A DNA stretch of 21,350 bases from a virus. Shown in pieces: positions 2,950-20,718 of this stretch. The translations under genes were made by a program, and so were the position numbers. Every line of letters starts with the position of its first letter. Position 1 is the first letter of the stretch. Under the pieces are notes generated by a model. The model saw only the letters and a program-made list of their open reading frames with translations, was not told the DNA's origin and made no database searches. The stretch is taken from the IMG/VR virus record IMGVR_UViG_3300013131_000288, positions 1 to 21,350 of that record. One strand, given 5' to 3'.

Positions 2950-3079
2950 GAAAATAATAGGTATAGATTTTTCTTTGAATTTAGGATATATAATATATGA
3001 AAAGGTATGTTACATATCTAACTGTTTATATTGGAGAGCTTTTACCCAAATACTATATTGGTTCAACTTCCGAGGATAA
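2927..3079 (+). pseudogene. Relic 5' end of the RuvC-like nuclease gene
   Basis: A 50-codon reading frame opens at ATG 2927, inside the end of the tail-tube-like gene. Residues 9-22 read KKIIGIDFSLNLGY, matching the first catalytic motif of the downstream RuvC-like protein, whose N-terminus reads TKYIGVDFSPNSPGF. After about codon 23 the frame loses resemblance, enters the endonuclease gene and stops at 3079. This is best explained as the original start of the RuvC-like gene, disconnected when the endonuclease gene at 2997 inserted with a substitute 5' end. The two copies differ at many synonymous positions, which argues against a recent tandem duplication. The similarity is short but includes the invariant Gly-x-Asp. 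Confidence 0.6.
2984..2993 (+). promoter_or_regulatory. Late-promoter-like element GGATATATAA
   Basis: The element ends 3 nt before the ATG at 2997. The 17-mer covering the element and start codon (2984-3000) recurs exactly at 16320-16336. It probably marks where the mobile endonuclease cassette begins, since the resemblance of the RuvC relic to its parent fades here. Confidence 0.5.
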
Positions 3080-3824
3080 AATAATTTCTGGTAATTATTT
3101 TGGAAGTGTAAAATCTAAAAAATGGAAATCCATATTTAGAAACGAATTAAAAAAAAATAAACATTTATTTTCTGTACAAATATTATCATATCATAATGAT
3201 AGAAAATCCGCATTAGAAGAGGAATTAAGATTACAAAAAGAAAAAGATGTTGTAAGATCAAAAGATTATATTAATGAATCATTAGCAACCCCAAATGGAT
3301 TCTTTGGAATGGATACTAAGGGAGAGAAATCTCCAACGTTTGGAAATAAAATGTCTGATGAATCTAAGAAAAAAATGTCATTAGCAAAAAAGGGGAAAAG
3401 TTATGAAGAAATATACGGAAAAGAAACTGCTAATAAATTAAAATTAAGAATGTCTGAAAGATTTTCTGGTGATAAAAATCCAATGTATGGAATATCAAGA
3501 ATCGGAACTGATGCACCTAACTATGGAAATAAAATGTCTGATGAATCTAGGAAAAAAATGTCGGATTCACAGAAAGGAAATAGAAATAGATTAGGAAAAG
3601 AATCTTCAGAAAAAACTAGAAATATATTATCAGAATTAAATAAAGGCGAAAAAAACCCAAGATATAAAGAAATTAATTTTTCATTAGTTATTGGATTTAT
3701 AAAAAAGGGAAAAACCAATAAAGAAATATGTGAATTATTTGGTATTTCTATATGTACTTTTAGAAATAGATTTAAAGAAGAAATGGGAATATCAATAAAA
3801 GAATATAGGAAAAAATATGAATAA
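2997..3824 (+). CDS. GIY-YIG homing endonuclease with NUMOD3-type repeats
   Basis: The N-terminus carries a GIY-YIG nuclease motif: TVYIG at residues 9-13 and YYIGST at 19-24, followed by basic residues and ALEEELRLQKE, whose Glu fits the metal-binding position. Residues about 108-215 hold repeated NUMOD3-like DNA-contact modules (GEKSPTFGNKMSDESKKKM, GDKNPMYG, YGNKMSDESRKKM, GEKNPRY). The last 45 residues read as a helix-turn-helix (NKEICELFGISICTFRNRF). This layout is that of free-standing phage homing endonucleases such as the T4 Seg proteins. The gene sits between the relic and the working copy of the RuvC-like gene and overlaps the latter by 8 nt. Lysine and AAA codons are more frequent than in its neighbours, consistent with a mobile origin. 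Confidence 0.9.
   Translation: MKRYVTYLTVYIGELLPKYYIGSTSEDKIISGNYFGSVKSKKWKSIFRNELKKNKHLFSVQILSYHNDRKSALEEELRLQKEKDVVRSKDYINESLATPNGFFGMDTKGEKSPTFGNKMSDESKKKMSLAKKGKSYEEIYGKETANKLKLRMSERFSGDKNPMYGISRIGTDAPNYGNKMSDESRKKMSDSQKGNRNRLGKESSEKTRNILSELNKGEKNPRYKEINFSLVIGFIKKGKTNKEICELFGISICTFRNRFKEEMGISIKEYRKKYE
3341..3378 (+). repeat. Intragenic direct repeat in the GIY-YIG gene, copy 1
   Basis: These 38 nt recur at 3524-3561 with one mismatch (AAG versus AGG). They encode the repeated G-N-K-M-S-D-E-S-[KR]-K-K-M module of the NUMOD3-like DNA-binding region. The copies are 183 nt (61 codons) apart, so the repeat keeps frame. Confidence 0.8.
3524..3561 (+). repeat. Intragenic direct repeat in the GIY-YIG gene, copy 2
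   Basis: This is the second copy of the 38-nt repeat at 3341-3378. Its segment 3537-3556 is also identical over 20 nt to 8600-8619 in the unrelated endonuclease inside the uvsW locus. Confidence 0.8.
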
Positions 3825-7233: not shown

Positions 7234-8247
7234 ATGTTAAAGTTTTCAGTGACAGATGATAATAATTGGTTGAGTTTATTTCACTATGATGAGGAGTTCG
7301 AGAGAAAACAAATGGAAATTTCTTTAACTAGAAAAATACACAATCACTTTTTCCACCCTTTGGTTAAGAAAAAACATTGGGATGGATCAATATGTTTTAT
7401 TGATAAAAAACCCACATTCTGGAGAATCCCTGTTGGACTATGGGGAGAAGTATATGAGATTTGTGAAAAATATAAAATACCTGTTGAGATCAATGGTCTC
7501 GAAAGGGTAATAGATAATAAATTAACTTTGGAAGATTTTACTGAATGGTGTAATGAATTTTTCAAAGATGGTATAGGAGGAGATCCTAATAAAAAACCTA
7601 GAGACTATCAAATAGAAGCAGCTTGGAGAATAGTTAAGTTTAAACTTTCAGTTTCTGAAATTGCTACTAGTTCGGGTAAAACTTTTATTGCTTTTATAGT
7701 TTTAGCCTATTTAAAAAGTGTGCATAAAGTACAAAAGTTTCTAATGGTTGTTCCTAACACAAATTTAGTGTTACAAGGATCGGAAGATTTTGAAGAATAT
7801 GGACTCGAGAATCTTGATAACTGTGAGCTTCAACAAATACACGGATCTAATAAAAAGAAAATATCAAGTGGCCTAATGATAGGAACCTATCAATCGCTTG
7901 TGAAATTAGGACCTGAGTTTTTTGATGGAGTTGAAGCTGTGTTTGTGGATGAGTGTTTACACCCAGATTCTTTAGTAACTATGGCTGATAATTCATTAAA
8001 AAGAATCTGTGATATTGTTGTAGGGGAGGAAGTATTAACTGTAAATGATAAATCAGGAAAGGTCGAATCTAAAATTGTAGATTTTGTTTATCATAATATG
8101 TCAAAAGGTAATCAGATGTATGAAATAGAAACTGATTGCGGTAAGATATTAAAAGTTACAGGTAATCATAAGTTAAGACTTTCTACTGGAGAATGGAAAA
8201 AGGTTGAAGATCTGACAGAGTCTGATGAGTTATGGGATTTATATTAA
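7234..8247 (+). CDS. uvsW: UvsW-like helicase, N-terminal half fused to intein N-half (IntN)
   Basis: Residues 1-240 are the N-terminal half of a UvsW-type superfamily 2 helicase. They comprise the small N-terminal domain (FERKQMEISLTRKIHNHFFHPLVKK, WDGSICFIDKKP), then RDYQIEAAW (Q-motif region), Walker A TSSGKT (G148-K149-T150), the VVPNTNLVLQ motif, GTYQSLVK, and the start of Walker B, VFVDE. UvsW unwinds branched DNA and R-loops. At C241 (base 7954) the protein turns into a 97-residue intein N-terminal splicing domain that stops at 8247. The remaining helicase motifs are encoded only at 9201-10025 in another frame. The product cannot be an active helicase alone. The last 23 nt overlap the endonuclease gene, suggesting coupled translation. 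Confidence 0.9.
   Translation: MLKFSVTDDNNWLSLFHYDEEFERKQMEISLTRKIHNHFFHPLVKKKHWDGSICFIDKKPTFWRIPVGLWGEVYEICEKYKIPVEINGLERVIDNKLTLEDFTEWCNEFFKDGIGGDPNKKPRDYQIEAAWRIVKFKLSVSEIATSSGKTFIAFIVLAYLKSVHKVQKFLMVVPNTNLVLQGSEDFEEYGLENLDNCELQQIHGSNKKKISSGLMIGTYQSLVKLGPEFFDGVEAVFVDECLHPDSLVTMADNSLKRICDIVVGEEVLTVNDKSGKVESKIVDFVYHNMSKGNQMYEIETDCGKILKVTGNHKLRLSTGEWKKVEDLTESDELWDLY
7954..8244 (+). other. Split intein N-terminal fragment (IntN)
   Basis: The 97-residue Hint N-domain starts with nucleophile Cys1 (CLHPDSLVTMADNSLKRI, block A), has the strand VGEEVLTV, and carries block B with the TxxH motif (V-T69-G-N-H72-KL), followed by STGEWKKVEDL. In inteins Cys1 performs the first N-to-S shift and the TxxH His activates it. 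Length and ending resemble known split-intein N-halves. It ends at a stop codon rather than running into the endonuclease. Confidence 0.9.
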
Positions 8248-9094
8248 TAAAAGACCCATGTGTAACAATCAAGATAAACAAAAAATTAAAGAATATATTA
8301 TTAAGAATAAAAAATTTATAACTCAGTACCGGATGAAAGAGATATTAGATAAGGAAAAAAGAGCATTATCTAATATTAGGCTTTTTTCTGGAATAAACAT
8401 TCCTGATGAAATAGATGATGTTAAATCATTATTGTGTTTAATTGATGTTAATAACGGAGTATGTGAGAGGGATGGTTGTATAAACGAAAAATCAAGGGAT
8501 CCAGGTAGATGGGAACTAAGAAAATTCTGTAGTAGATCGTGTGCAGATAAGGATTTTGGATCTAAGCAAATTGGATGTAAAAATTCTTTCCATAACATAT
8601 CTGATGAATCTAGGAAAAATATGGGATCTAAGATATCTAAAAAAATTAGAAAAAGGATACTAGATGGTGAATTTACTCCTAATATAACTAATTCTTGGTC
8701 AAATAGTAAGATCTCTGTTAATATTAATGGCGAATTAAAATTTGTAAGATCCTCCTGGGAAGCATATTTTTATATTTTAAATAAGGATCTTAGTTATGAA
8801 TTAATAAGAATTCCCTATTTAGACGAAAAGACAAACAAAGTTAGAAGTTATATAACTGACTTTTGTGATTTTAATAATAAGATAATATATGAAATAAAAC
8901 CAAAAACGAGAGTAAAAGATAATTTTTTAAAAATAAAAGAGGCTAAGAAGTGGTGCGAAATAAATTCTTATTCCTATGTAATAATAACACAGGAATGGAT
9001 AATAGAGAGATATGATCGAAAAAAATTAGTGGATCAACCTGAAGGAGAAAGAATAGCAAGACTTATTGAAAAAATGATAAAATATGAAAATTAG
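8225..9094 (+). CDS. PD-(D/E)XK-like homing endonuclease within the split-intein locus
   Basis: The ORF has 289 residues. C80, C85, C102 and C106 (CERDGC ... FCSRSC) look like a zinc finger. Residues 126-145 (SDESRKNMGSKISKKIRKRI) are NUMOD3-like. The C-terminal third has a nuclease core: VRSSWEAYF (E179), SYITDF (D212) and IIYEIKP (E223, K225), then a Lys-rich helix and SYVIIT, fitting the E...D...ExK order of PD-(D/E)XK or VSR-like homing nucleases. It would cut intein-free uvsW alleles to spread the element. The start is uncertain: ATG 8225 overlaps the IntN ORF, while ATG 8258 (residue 12) lies just after the upstream stop behind an AATAAAAG leader and may be the true start. The end overlaps the C-half gene by 11 nt. 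The exact nuclease subfamily is inference. Confidence 0.82.
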   Translation: MSYGIYINKRPMCNNQDKQKIKEYIIKNKKFITQYRMKEILDKEKRALSNIRLFSGINIPDEIDDVKSLLCLIDVNNGVCERDGCINEKSRDPGRWELRKFCSRSCADKDFGSKQIGCKNSFHNISDESRKNMGSKISKKIRKRILDGEFTPNITNSWSNSKISVNINGELKFVRSSWEAYFYILNKDLSYELIRIPYLDEKTNKVRSYITDFCDFNNKIIYEIKPKTRVKDNFLKIKEAKKWCEINSYSYVIITQEWIIERYDRKKLVDQPEGERIARLIEKMIKYEN

Positions 9095-9200
9095 ATCGAT
9101 AAAAAAAATTAATCATTGTGACGACGTTTATAATTTAAGAATAAAATCTGATGATGGAAATAATCATAATTATATTGCTGAAGGTATACTCGTAAGTAAT
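9084..9200 (+). other. Split intein C-terminal fragment (IntC)
   Basis: The 39 residues contain block F (DDVYNLRI ... NNHNYIAEGI) and block G ending LVSN before Cys+1. The terminal Asn39 would cyclise and the +1 Cys act as second nucleophile. The penultimate residue is Ser rather than the usual His, as in the fast DnaE split inteins (ending ASN before C). The length is typical of natural IntC pieces. Confidence 0.9.
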
Positions 9201-10025
9201 TGCCATCAAGCAAAATCTTCTTCGATCAAGCAGGTCGTTGCTTTGTGTAGAGACTCCAAATGGAGATTTGGTTTATCCGGTACTCTAACTAATAAGAAGA
9301 GTGCTGAGTATTTAACTATACAACAATTCCTTGGACCTTTAGTTATGGAGATATCACCTAAATTTCTTTTCGAGAATAAGTATGCTACTCCTGTGAATAT
9401 CAAGATCATTAAAATGAATTGGATGGATCCTGAGGTCAAGGCGAAGTTAGGTAATCTTAGAGAGAATAAGGTTGAGCTTGAAGGTAATGATCTTTTCAAT
9501 CTGGAGAGAAAACTTGTTGTTAATTCAGATGCTAGATTAAATTTCATTATCGAATTTATTTTAAAGACGTCTAAGAATTCATTAGTACTTTTTCAGTCTG
9601 TTGCAGAAGGTTATGGTAAAAAGATATATGATGGTATTAGAGGCAGAACATCAGACAAAGAGGTTTATTATATAGACGGAGATACTAGTCCAGATAAAAG
9701 AGATATATTTACCCAGAGAATGGAAGAAGGTACTAATAAAGTAATGGTAGCTTCTTTTGGTACTATGTCAACTGGGATTTCTGTAAAAAATATCCATAAT
9801 ATATTTCTAGTTGAATCTTATAAATCCGAGGTTCTTATTAAACAGAGTCTTGGTAGGGGGATGAGGTTATATGAAGGTAAAGAGAAAGTTAACATAATAG
9901 ACTTTGTGGATGATTTCTCTTATAATGGAAAAGATAACTACCTAATGAAACACTCCAAAGAAAGAATAGAGATTTATAAAAGAGAGCATTTCGAATATAA
10001 AGTATATAATGTAGATGTGAAGTAA
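9084..10025 (+). CDS. uvsW: Intein C-half (IntC) fused to UvsW-like helicase C-terminal half
   Basis: Residues 1-39 are an intein C-terminal domain. From C40 the protein is the second half of a UvsW-like helicase, beginning CHQAKSSSI, which completes the DECH motif. Then come motif III GLSGTL (63-68), the second RecA domain with LVLFQSVAEGYGKKIYD, a Y-Y-I-D-G-D strand, VASFGTMSTGISVKNIHN (motif V) and motif VI QSLGRGMRL (Q254, R258, R261), ending with IIDFVDDFSY. All match the order in T4 UvsW (QTIGRVLRK, VWDLIDDAG). The ATG at 9084 overlaps the endonuclease stop by 11 nt. Neither half contains a full set of ATPase motifs, so activity should depend on trans-splicing. Confidence 0.9.
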   Translation: MKIRSIKKINHCDDVYNLRIKSDDGNNHNYIAEGILVSNCHQAKSSSIKQVVALCRDSKWRFGLSGTLTNKKSAEYLTIQQFLGPLVMEISPKFLFENKYATPVNIKIIKMNWMDPEVKAKLGNLRENKVELEGNDLFNLERKLVVNSDARLNFIIEFILKTSKNSLVLFQSVAEGYGKKIYDGIRGRTSDKEVYYIDGDTSPDKRDIFTQRMEEGTNKVMVASFGTMSTGISVKNIHNIFLVESYKSEVLIKQSLGRGMRLYEGKEKVNIIDFVDDFSYNGKDNYLMKHSKERIEIYKREHFEYKVYNVDVK

Positions 10026-16914: not shown

Positions 16915-17298
16915 TTATTCTATTGTTTCGAAATAGAACTTTACCTCTATATCAGTTTCTTTGATTAGTCCGTATCTTTTTGCAAATTTGTATTGTGTAC
17001 TGTATTCATTTAGTGATTTAACAAATTGTTTTATATTGTTTCTAAACTGCTCAAGTGTATATGAATTCTTCTGTATGTTACAACTAGCACATGAAGGGTT
17101 ATAGTTTTCCAAGGTTTCTTTCTCCGGGTTTCTACAATTACCAGTTTTTACAAATCTTCCTTTTTTCCTATTCCATTTACTTTCCCTGATGATTGGTTCT
17201 ATGTGATCTGCGTGCCATCCTTTTACTAATTCACAACCACAGTATGAACATTTTCCGTCGTATTTATTAAATACAATCTCTCGTTCTTTTTTTGTCAT
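16915..17298 (-). CDS. HNH homing-type endonuclease
   Basis: This 127-residue protein has a complete HNH core: zinc-binding CSYC (C17, C20) and CASC (C70, C73), the catalytic block WHADHIEPI (H29, D31, H32) and NYNPSCASCNIQKNS supplying the later Asn residues. Free-standing HNH nucleases of this length are common mobile genes in T4-like phages; a role in packaging or host DNA breakdown is possible but less likely here. It begins 1 nt after the stop of the minus-strand gene upstream and ends flush against the plus-strand gene at 16914. Confidence 0.85.
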   Translation of the reverse strand: MTKKEREIVFNKYDGKCSYCGCELVKGWHADHIEPIIRESKWNRKKGRFVKTGNCRNPEKETLENYNPSCASCNIQKNSYTLEQFRNNIKQFVKSLNEYSTQYKFAKRYGLIKETDIEVKFYFETIE

Positions 17299-17660: not shown

Positions 17661-19079
17661 ATGATAATAGATATTGAAAACATAGGAGGAGGTACTTTAA
17701 AGGTATCTCATTACACTGAGGAGGGGGAAGTAAATCTTTTAAAGATAAACGTACCCAAGTCTCAGCATTTTGTTTGGAAAAGGACACATGATAGGGATAA
17801 GGAAAAAGACAATGAATGGACATCTTGGGATAAATCACCGATTAAGAAACATCCAACTACTAGATTTGATAAGTATAGAACAACAGAAATTCTAGAATGT
17901 ATAGATCCAAATATAACTAAGCCTCTTTGGGATTATCAAACGCCAAAAAAATACTTTGTCGATATAGAGGTAGAGATTACAGACAATAGAGCGGATTCAT
18001 TAGACACCTTGAATTCTCCGAATAAGGTTGTTTCTATCGGTATGGCATCAAGCCACGGTAAGGTTCTAGTTATGGGATTGGATGACATGCCACCAGAGAA
18101 AATATTAAGAATTAACAAAAGACTGGCAGAGTATTTCAAGGGAAGACCAGGGGAATGGAGTTTTAATTATAGAAAGTTTGAAAGTGAATTTGATATGCTC
18201 TACACATTCTTTTCTGCTCTACTTCCTAAAATGCCTCTAGTTACTGGATGGAACTGGTTTGGATATGACTGGCCTTATTTGTTAAATAGAGCGAGAAGAC
18301 TTGGAATAGATCCTAAGATTGGATCTCCTTCAGGAGTTCTTCTAGGTAACAATCAAATACCTATGCACGTACTAATGGTCGATTACCTAGAGATCTATAA
18401 AAAATGGGACAGGGTTATTAAAATACGTGAATCCAACTCTTTAGATTATGTTGCAGAGCAGGCACTCGGTATTAAGAAAGTTAAGTATGATGGAACATTA
18501 AGGGATTTATACGAATCAGATTTTGAGACTTTTATATTCTATAACGCAGTCGATTGTGTGCTACTTCATTATATAGACAAAAGACTTGATACACTTTCAA
18601 CATTCTTTAAAATTGCACAAGTAAGTAGGGTTGAAATAAACCGTGCGCTTTCACCGGTTTGGACAACAGAAGTACTGATGCTTAGAAAGTTCATGGAACG
18701 GAAACAAGTTATCCTTGATGAAAGGAAGGAGGTACCAGATGTTAAATTCGAAGGGGCATTCGTTAAGAAACCAAAACCTGGTATGTATTCTTGGATTGCT
18801 TGTTTTGACTTTGCTTCTCTTTATCCTAATACGATGATGCAATGGGGTATATCACCTGAAATATTTATTGGTAAGAATATAGAAGATCTCCCGGAGGGAG
18901 CTATAAAAACATCTTCAGGAGCTTGCTTCTATAGTCCTGAAGGAAGACCCCCAGTTTTAAGGGAGATACTAGAATGGCTTTATTCACAAAGAAAAGCAAC
19001 TAAGAAAAAGTACTTTGAGTGTGAGAAAGAAATAGAGAAAATAAAAAAAGCGATAAAAGAGAAACAAAAATCAATATAA
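17661..19079 (+). CDS. 43: Family B DNA polymerase, N-terminal half only (gp43A-like)
   Basis: The 472 residues cover the N-terminal and 3'-5' exonuclease domains and the start of the palm: Exo I VDIEVEI (D101, E103), Exo II GWNWFGYDWPYL (N198, D203), Exo III YNAVDCV (Y294, D298), and polymerase motif A CFDFASLYPN (D383, S386, Y388). The protein ends after WLYSQRKATKKKYFE and a Lys/Glu-rich helix, at the fingers, so motif B (KxxxNSxYG), motif C (DTD) and the thumb are missing. T4 gp43 has 898 residues. No continuation is present in any frame downstream to 21350. Some Aeromonas T4-like phages have gene 43 split into 43A and 43B, so a separate C-terminal gene outside the window is likely. The 3'-5' exonuclease residues are intact. 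Confidence 0.88.
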   Translation: MIIDIENIGGGTLKVSHYTEEGEVNLLKINVPKSQHFVWKRTHDRDKEKDNEWTSWDKSPIKKHPTTRFDKYRTTEILECIDPNITKPLWDYQTPKKYFVDIEVEITDNRADSLDTLNSPNKVVSIGMASSHGKVLVMGLDDMPPEKILRINKRLAEYFKGRPGEWSFNYRKFESEFDMLYTFFSALLPKMPLVTGWNWFGYDWPYLLNRARRLGIDPKIGSPSGVLLGNNQIPMHVLMVDYLEIYKKWDRVIKIRESNSLDYVAEQALGIKKVKYDGTLRDLYESDFETFIFYNAVDCVLLHYIDKRLDTLSTFFKIAQVSRVEINRALSPVWTTEVLMLRKFMERKQVILDERKEVPDVKFEGAFVKKPKPGMYSWIACFDFASLYPNTMMQWGISPEIFIGKNIEDLPEGAIKTSSGACFYSPEGRPPVLREILEWLYSQRKATKKKYFECEKEIEKIKKAIKEKQKSI

Positions 19080-19848: not shown

Positions 19849-20718
19849 ATGAAAGCTTTTGTATATCGTTGGACCAATCATAAGAATCTTATGCAATATA
19901 TTGGATCTCATATAGGGGATATTGATGATGGATATGTAGGATCCGGAAAATATTTTATTAATGCCTATAACAAAAATCCCGAATTTTTTTCACGTGAGAT
20001 ATTGGAATTTATAGAGGGAGATGACGTAAAGAGTATAATAAAGGAGAGAGAAGAGTATTACCTAAATATTTATGAAGTTTCAAAAAATCCTCTATATTAT
20101 AACATAACTGAAAGATATTTCGGTGGAGATGTTTATTCAGGATTAAACGAGGAGGATAAAAAGATTATGATGGATAAAACGGTAAAAAAAACTAAGGAGG
20201 ATAGGGCCAATAATCCAGAAAAATGGAGATTAATATATGATAAGATGTCTAAAACTAAGAGAGATAAATCTTCTTATATTAACCAATTTGATATTAATGG
20301 AATATTGATAAGTACTTATTCTTGTATAGAGGAAGCACACGAAATGACTGGAATATCTAAAGGAAATATACATTCGGTTCTAATAGGTAAAAGAAATAAT
20401 GCTGGTGGATTTAGGTGGTCCTATACAGATGTACCTAATCTGCTTATTAATAAAAAACGCGGAAGACCTAATGGGGTAAGGAACAAGAATAAAATGGAAA
20501 GATCACATACCAATGTAAGAAAACTGGAAGTGATTCAGTATGATCTAGAGGGGGATTTAATTAGAATTTGGGAATCTTCTTTAGAAGCATCTAGGGAGTT
20601 GGGATTAAGCTCAGGATCAATAAACCATTTTATTAACGGAAGAAAACCAAAGTCAGGAAACTACGGAGGATTTATATGGGAAAAAGGAAATAATATCACT
20701 TACACCATATACAAATAA
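19849..20718 (+). CDS. GIY-YIG homing endonuclease with two NUMOD1-type domains
   Basis: This 289-residue protein has a GIY-YIG-type N-terminus (AFVYRWTN at 3-10, QYIGSHIG at 16-23, then GYVGSGKYF and EREEYYLN with a candidate catalytic Glu). Two NUMOD1-like repeats follow: INQFDINGILISTYSCIEEA ... GGFRW (about 134-186) and VIQYDLEGDLIRIWESSLEA ... GGFIW (about 228-280), each a beta-hairpin plus helix-turn-helix used to bind DNA. An RGRPNG AT-hook-like stretch lies between them. The domain layout differs from the first GIY-YIG gene, so the two are separate arrivals. It lies between gene 56 and nrdB; nrdB is a known target region for such enzymes in T4-like phages. Confidence 0.88.
   Translation: MKAFVYRWTNHKNLMQYIGSHIGDIDDGYVGSGKYFINAYNKNPEFFSREILEFIEGDDVKSIIKEREEYYLNIYEVSKNPLYYNITERYFGGDVYSGLNEEDKKIMMDKTVKKTKEDRANNPEKWRLIYDKMSKTKRDKSSYINQFDINGILISTYSCIEEAHEMTGISKGNIHSVLIGKRNNAGGFRWSYTDVPNLLINKKRGRPNGVRNKNKMERSHTNVRKLEVIQYDLEGDLIRIWESSLEASRELGLSSGSINHFINGRKPKSGNYGGFIWEKGNNITYTIYK

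Follow-up and report, generated by a model that had tools for sequence, protein, structure and literature searches.

How does a phage keep a working helicase when its gene is broken in the middle of a catalytic motif, and does the interrupting element simply exploit a residue already present there or bring that residue with it? The question is raised by the uvsW gene on a 21,350-base viral fragment, IMG/VR record IMGVR_UViG_3300013131_000288 (the whole fragment is called the window here), which has T4-like phage content, with PHROG matches for tail tube, RuvC-like, SSB, primase, UvsY and UvsW proteins, and whose closest phage DNA match is Lak, at 69% over just 257 nucleotides. Very probably, uvsW is here a fractured gene in which a trans-splicing split intein lies between the D-E and the C-H of the helicase motif, and endonuclease-driven homing copies the insert along with the codon just behind it (the +1 codon), so that DEAH or DETH alleles may become DECH. 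In this account we infer that splicing and cleavage occur and that homing directly changes the codon.

A split intein inside motif II

The insert occupies positions 7954-9200 and is 1247 base pairs long, which is not a multiple of 3; the region holds three open reading frames (ORFs), each in a different frame, and two internal stops. The ORF at 7234-8247 encodes 240 amino acids of UvsW ending in VFVDE, then 97 of intein and a stop. A second frame (8225-9094) encodes a 289-amino-acid endonuclease, and the third (9084-10025) opens with 39 amino acids of intein ending in VSN before continuing as CHQAKSS and the rest of UvsW. The endonuclease ORF, which has a second in-frame ATG at 8258, overlaps the ORF of the N-terminal intein half (IntN) by 23 nucleotides and that of the C-terminal half (IntC) by 11. 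The last N-extein codons, GTG TTT GTG GAT GAG, end at 7953 and are followed by the TGT (7954-7956) of the intein's Cys1; IntC closes with GTA AGT AAT at 9200, and the C-extein opens with TGC CAT CAA at 9201. The joined, insert-free site would read GTGGATGAG/TGCCATCAA.

Because of the insert's length, the three frames and the two stops, the halves must be separate gene products, and IntN and IntC are indeed separate polypeptides, each with its own start and stop. A single cis-splicing intein with a nested endonuclease is ruled out by the reading frames. We therefore abandon the one intein with "unspliced halves" of a first-pass annotation, which had located the insert rightly, though its span of 7939-9215 took in 15 nucleotides of extein on each side. 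The window's uvsW appears instead to be a fractured gene, with a split intein and a free-standing endonuclease gene between its halves, whose two polypeptides would have to be trans-spliced to give intact UvsW. A search of the window for the T4-type late promoter TATAAATA found none.

The identity of the gene follows from homology to T4 UvsW (PDB 2oca/1rif) across both helicase domains, from the DECH of motif II and from PHROG 16 (DNA helicase). By phmmer both halves align to the T4 structures, with the break inside DEC(H), and T4 UvsW has DECH at the corresponding place; on both points the first-pass annotation was right. The curated intein models pass as well: TIGR01445 (N-terminal; cut-off 24.5) at 37.3 bits over residues 241-315, where Cys1 and TGNH are present, and TIGR01443 (C-terminal; cut-off 15.6) at 20.8 bits over residues 15-40, ending in SN/C (a slash marks each break).

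Features of the interrupted uvsW locus in the window; HMM, hidden Markov model; aa, amino acids
Feature	Positions	Strand	Evidence
UvsW N-extein, 240 aa, ends ...EAVFVDE, Walker A TSSGKT	7234..7953	+	phmmer T4 UvsW 1rif 2.8e-15; Pfam ResIII 5.6e-14; HMM
GATGAG codons, D-E of motif II / Walker B, directly before insert	7948..7953	+	sequence; alignment to T4 UvsW DEC
IntN, 97 aa (CLHPDS...TGNHK...LWDLY), and stop TAA	7954..8247	+	TIGR01445 37.3 bits; Hint 2.7e-10
Putative free-standing PD-(D/E)XK endonuclease, 289 aa	8225..9094	+	Pfam TnsA-like N 4.1e-6; AlphaFold pLDDT 92; VIA Z; residue counts
IntC, 39 aa, own ATG (MKIRS...NHNYIAEGILVSN), terminal Asn, penultimate Ser	9084..9200	+	TIGR01443 20.8 bits; HMM
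TGCCAT codons, C-H of DECH, Cys as +1 residue	9201..9206	+	sequence; T4 DECH; Cys in 89/89 filled loci
UvsW C-extein, 273 aa and stop, helicase C-terminal domain	9201..10025	+	phmmer T4 UvsW 2oca 1e-27; Pfam Helicase_C 4.5e-6

Scans of IMG/VR yielded about 270 loci, called filled or empty automatically with HMMs, the key pairs being checked by eye. Of 109 distinct filled loci, both junctions can be read in 89, and all of these show DE/C...N/CH: 77 are fractured with a TnsA-like endonuclease, five are contiguous mini-inteins, five are split with short spacers and two hold other inserts. Among the other 20 are truncated loci, the Prevotella huge phage Lak-B2, a few at a different site, some that belong to other genes, and L263, a call that is apparently spurious. 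Lak-B2, in which the stop TAG is reassigned so that the automatic call ends early, was read by hand and is filled at the same site. Filled at the same codons are also Salmonella phage S16 (gp114, gp114.1 and gp115) and Proteus phage PM2, in whose records the halves appear as DNA helicase and the ORF between them as hypothetical protein; PHROGs likewise holds separate families for the two UvsW halves. With the curated models passing and the junction recurring in 89 distinct loci, this anatomy is far beyond chance.

The 84 split loci have insert lengths in all three phases (25, 21 and 38 with remainders of 0, 1 and 2 on division by 3), and 82 of them have an ATG for IntC, so the halves must be translated independently. 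There is next to no probability that the insert is one large uninterrupted intein, with an endonuclease domain inserted in it, whose two stops arose from sequencing errors. Contiguous inteins do occur at the site (L027, L028, L042, L063 and L089), and in L116 IntN and the endonuclease share one ORF, but separate ORFs are found again in independent assemblies and in the isolates S16 and PM2, with inserts of every phase; recurrence in isolate genomes rules sequencing error out.

Cys1, the TxNH of block B and the terminal Asn are conserved in 89/89 filled loci. This bears on the idea that the intein has decayed and uvsW is simply broken, or that the halves act as a non-covalent enzyme without splicing. 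The two stop codons between the halves would fit it, and the split nrdA of phage Aeh1, a gene in pieces reported without splicing, provides a precedent (PMC3653736). It is nonetheless scarcely probable here, for the splicing residues are all intact in the window as in the relatives, both exteins are intact and conserved, and a cut inside DE/CH is ill-suited to non-covalent complementation.

The contiguous mini-inteins at the site have a predicted Hint fold (predicted local distance difference test, pLDDT, 91), and their profile matches the solved DnaB (NpuDnaB), gp41-1 and NrdJ-1 inteins by sequence and by predicted fold. The uvsW split intein resembles gp41-1 (6qaz) and NrdJ-1 (8ubs) in its Hint fold, an IntN of about 97 and an IntC of about 39 amino acids and the canonical split position (sequence profile match 7e-9 each; Foldseek about 1e-7). 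It differs from them in its +1 residue, which is Cys here and Ser in gp41-1, and in the penultimate Ser of most uvsW-site members.

The +1 cysteine and the movement of the element

The first-pass annotation took the motif Cys to double as the +1 nucleophile, and the +1 residue is indeed Cys in all 89 readable filled loci; in several lineages, however, the nearest empty relatives are DEAH or DETH, and there the Cys most likely comes with the element. Across 78 distinct empty UvsW proteins the residue is Ala in 39, Cys in 22, Ser in nine, Thr in seven and Met in one, so that 56/78 lack Cys. The association of Cys with the filled state is strong by Fisher's test (8e-18; 48 UvsW-like filled loci, relatedness uncorrected), and when relatedness is controlled with 16 independent filled/empty pairs, the filled member is the one with Cys about 9.6 times and the reverse is never seen (p about 0.002). 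The filled L017 (TGT) and the empty L258 (GCA) are 99.0% identical in protein over 507 aligned positions and differ at all three bases of this codon; the proteins of L014 (TGT) and L255 (GCG) are 97.3% identical. Both pairs lie inside a DEAH clade, several further cases lie in a DETH clade, and at least eight filled tips have DEAH or DETH nearest empty relatives. As no intein splices onto Ala, the +1 codon would there have to arrive with the insert, and since it directly adjoins the insert it would be copied in any homing repair. Most likely, then, the element carries the Cys codon in and thereby rewrites the motif, instead of merely using a Cys that was already there.

The empty uvsW sites that the first-pass annotation had proposed looking for do occur in close relatives, namely Salmonella phage Melville and Lak-B3. 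Between Lak-B2 (filled) and Lak-B3 there are 34 mismatches in the 120 nucleotides adjoining the site and 14 in 3880 nucleotides elsewhere, which looks like what co-conversion during homing is expected to leave behind; in the pair L010 (filled) and L206 (empty), too, differences tend to lie beside the site. Together with the empty/filled pairs, the Lak tract supports the homing activity predicted for the endonuclease. On an unrooted extein tree of 122 UvsW proteins, built with the +1 residue masked, there are at least 18 changes between filled and empty, 16 of them forced by well-supported branches, and repeated gain or loss of the element is shown by the tree. The endonuclease tree conflicts with it: L014, L016, L017 and L034 have endonucleases that cluster with those from the clade of the window (8 rows, 100), and exteins that lie elsewhere.

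Several observations weigh against this account. There is no excess of change next to the site between S16 and Melville and hence no co-conversion tract, so that this trace is not universal; nor does any conversion tract extend past the +1 codon in L017/L258 or L014/L255. Changes on an unrooted tree alone give no direction, which is taken from nesting. The penultimate intein residue (window 9192-9200, and relatives) is Ser in 71, Ala in 13 and His, the usual residue, in just two of 89. Intein-free DECH proteins (L187 and L229) occur within DEAH clades, and some recipients may already have had Cys; these two are possibly scars of lost inteins. Finally, the empty relatives nearest to the window within its clade already have DECH and no codon change is needed, so the simpler view of the first-pass annotation suffices there.

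Some of these points would be expected if the element entered only uvsW alleles that were already DECH, with Cys as a pre-existing requirement and the motif left unrewritten: DECH is found in 22/78 empty UvsW, including all near relatives of the window, L187 and L229 sit inside DEAH clades, and the L017/L258 pair has no tract beyond the codon. We nevertheless regard this as rather unlikely, because that same pair, at 99.0% protein identity, differs at every base of the codon, and because each of the eight or more filled tips with DEAH or DETH nearest empties would need a separate unsampled DECH population.

Rewriting by the arriving element may extend to a second enzyme. The clamp loader (gp44) is fractured at its Walker B motif (LDE/CD) in L105, L111, L113, L118, L119 and L165, with split inteins and the same TnsA-like endonuclease family, and its +1 residue is Cys in 8/8 filled and 15/77 empty loci (the empties also having Ala in 43, Phe in 12, Ser in six and Val in one; p 1e-5, uncorrected). 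On balance we favour the view that such split-intein elements rewrite the Walker B or DExH motif of the host ATPase on arrival, from DEAH or DETH to DECH in UvsW and probably from LDE[A/F/S]D to LDECD in the clamp loader, the obligatory +1 Cys codon travelling with the element.

The endonuclease and its other host genes

The homing-type endonuclease that the first-pass annotation saw in the insert is borne out, as a TnsA/Vsr-like PD-(D/E)XK enzyme. Pfam PF08722 matches it at 27.7 bits (cut-off 26.5), as it does 24/40 relatives. A sequence-profile search against the PDB gave weak matches alone, such as T7 endonuclease I at 0.23, so fold comparison was needed for its identity. With the AlphaFold model (pLDDT 92), VIA gives Z scores of 9.3 and 8.8 to TnsA, 5.9 to I-Bth0305I and 5.1 to Vsr, and the predicted fold is nearer TnsA than Vsr. 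The likeness is to the catalytic domain of TnsA of Tn7 (1t0f, 1f1z) over 125-126 residues and to that of the Vsr-like homing endonuclease I-Bth0305I (3r3p) over 78, at about 14% identity; the N-terminal zinc-finger-like part (Cys80/85/102/106) is unmatched, and Tn7 genes are absent nearby. The putative catalytic residues are E179, D212 and E223-x-K225; D212 and E223 are invariant in 40/40 relatives, and position 225 is Lys or Arg in 40/40.

Dassa et al. reportedly described in 2009 fractured genes for conserved phage DNA enzymes, eight in all, each interrupted by a split intein whose halves flank a free-standing endonuclease gene, with a Vsr-like (EDxHD) endonuclease at half of the loci. The window's uvsW shares this arrangement; it differs in its host, UvsW at DE/CH, and in its TnsA-like endonuclease, which has an E-x-K triad (D212...E223-x-K225 in place of the HD pair); EDxHD does not define every fractured gene. 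The fractured-gene type is already known, and the proposed motif rewriting is the new part. A literature search on UvsW and inteins, the host list of Dassa 2009 not being covered, found no description of this element, and one on S16, uvsW and homing endonucleases found no report.

The same endonuclease family accompanies a split intein in the PhoH of L110, broken at its Walker B motif (VIVDE/CQN), and adjoins split TerL at Walker B. The TerL inteins are alike in breaking the Walker B motif of a phage P-loop ATPase, which has another fold than UvsW, and differ in that the IntN of AceL-type split inteins (AceL/GOS-TerL) is much shorter. Walker B inteins in TerL are known from the TerL1-e of mycobacteriophages (PMC5050341) and PhoH inteins from a Campylobacter phage (PMC3322345). 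The homing endonuclease segE of T4 and its relatives also exploit uvsW as a target (PMC2988022); they are of the GIY-YIG class, sited outside the gene and without an intein. S16 has an additional GIY-YIG homing endonuclease directly upstream of uvsW.

Consequences for UvsW and the range of elements at the site

In the mechanism that we propose, each UvsW half would be translated separately, IntN and IntC would associate, and Cys1 and the C-extein Cys(+1) would carry the splicing chemistry that yields intact DECH UvsW. Alleles of uvsW without the intein would be cut by the endonuclease at their DE/xH codons, and repair from the filled allele would copy the insert together with the neighbouring +1 codon, so that DEAH or DETH alleles could be invaded and would become DECH. 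It is most likely selfish, and tolerated since trans-splicing restores UvsW.

The first-pass annotation suggested that splicing could gate the helicase, UvsW staying inactive until its halves are spliced at the right stage or on a signal. The break splits the catalytic motif, so the precursors should be inactive, and three overlapping ORFs could order expression. A RecA-like ATP site needs both helicase domains, and by analogy with this known two-domain site both precursors are likely without ATPase activity; but any break between the domains would inactivate UvsW, so that precursor inactivity does not speak for a gate. We found no regulatory feature, the near-identical phages Melville, Lak-B3 and L206 have an intact uvsW without the element, which must therefore be dispensable, and the same site is held by different endonucleases or none, as expected for a parasite. 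A gate is accordingly very unlikely, and we keep to the selfish split-intein element.

The contiguous mini-inteins at DE/CH, of 130-139 amino acids, are those of L027 (3701-4117), L042 (3710-4099), L063 (3662-4066), L089 (3716-4105) and L028. L027 retains a Met at the point where the IntC of split forms begins, and may therefore derive from a split ancestor whose halves fused again. In L116 (2819-4471) a single open frame runs through N-extein, IntN and endonuclease and IntC stands apart, which represents another stage in the breaking of the gene. In L018 (2544-4000) uvsW is split at DE/CH by a 1.46-kilobase insert without a recognised endonuclease; the single 122-amino-acid ORF checked in it has no PHROG match. 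Split inteins in L059, L064, L073 and L079 occupy a second uvsW-like site directly after motif III (TGTLDGx/C); the inserts of L059, which matched homing-endonuclease PHROGs, and L073 are HNH-type, not TnsA-like. In L045 and L065 uvsW is interrupted twice, by the DE/CH split intein and by an insert in the C-terminal helicase domain, with an HNH endonuclease in L045.

Elsewhere in the window, the DNA polymerase gene at 17661-19079 covers the exonuclease and the beginning of the palm domain and then stops (a split gp43, matching a PHROG for the N-terminal half); no listed ORF of the window encodes the remainder. The 21 kilobases hold a further three homing-type endonuclease genes (2997-3824, 16915-17298 on the minus strand and 19849-20718), two GIY-YIG/NUMOD-like and one HNH; one is directly upstream of nrdB.

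Inteins at conserved sites are the rule (PMC2814812), yet the statement that they sit at conserved residues can mask the reverse, that the element sets the residue. If rewriting is true, past invasions would have left their scars in some DECH alleles that now lack an intein. The filled S16 and the empty Melville offer a cultured system in which to test directly whether a split intein homes into a catalytic motif. The series at this one site, with five contiguous mini-inteins, 77 fractured genes with TnsA-like endonucleases and split forms with other endonucleases or none, bears on the origin and re-fusion of split inteins, and it makes up a large family of natural split inteins with a +1 Cys.

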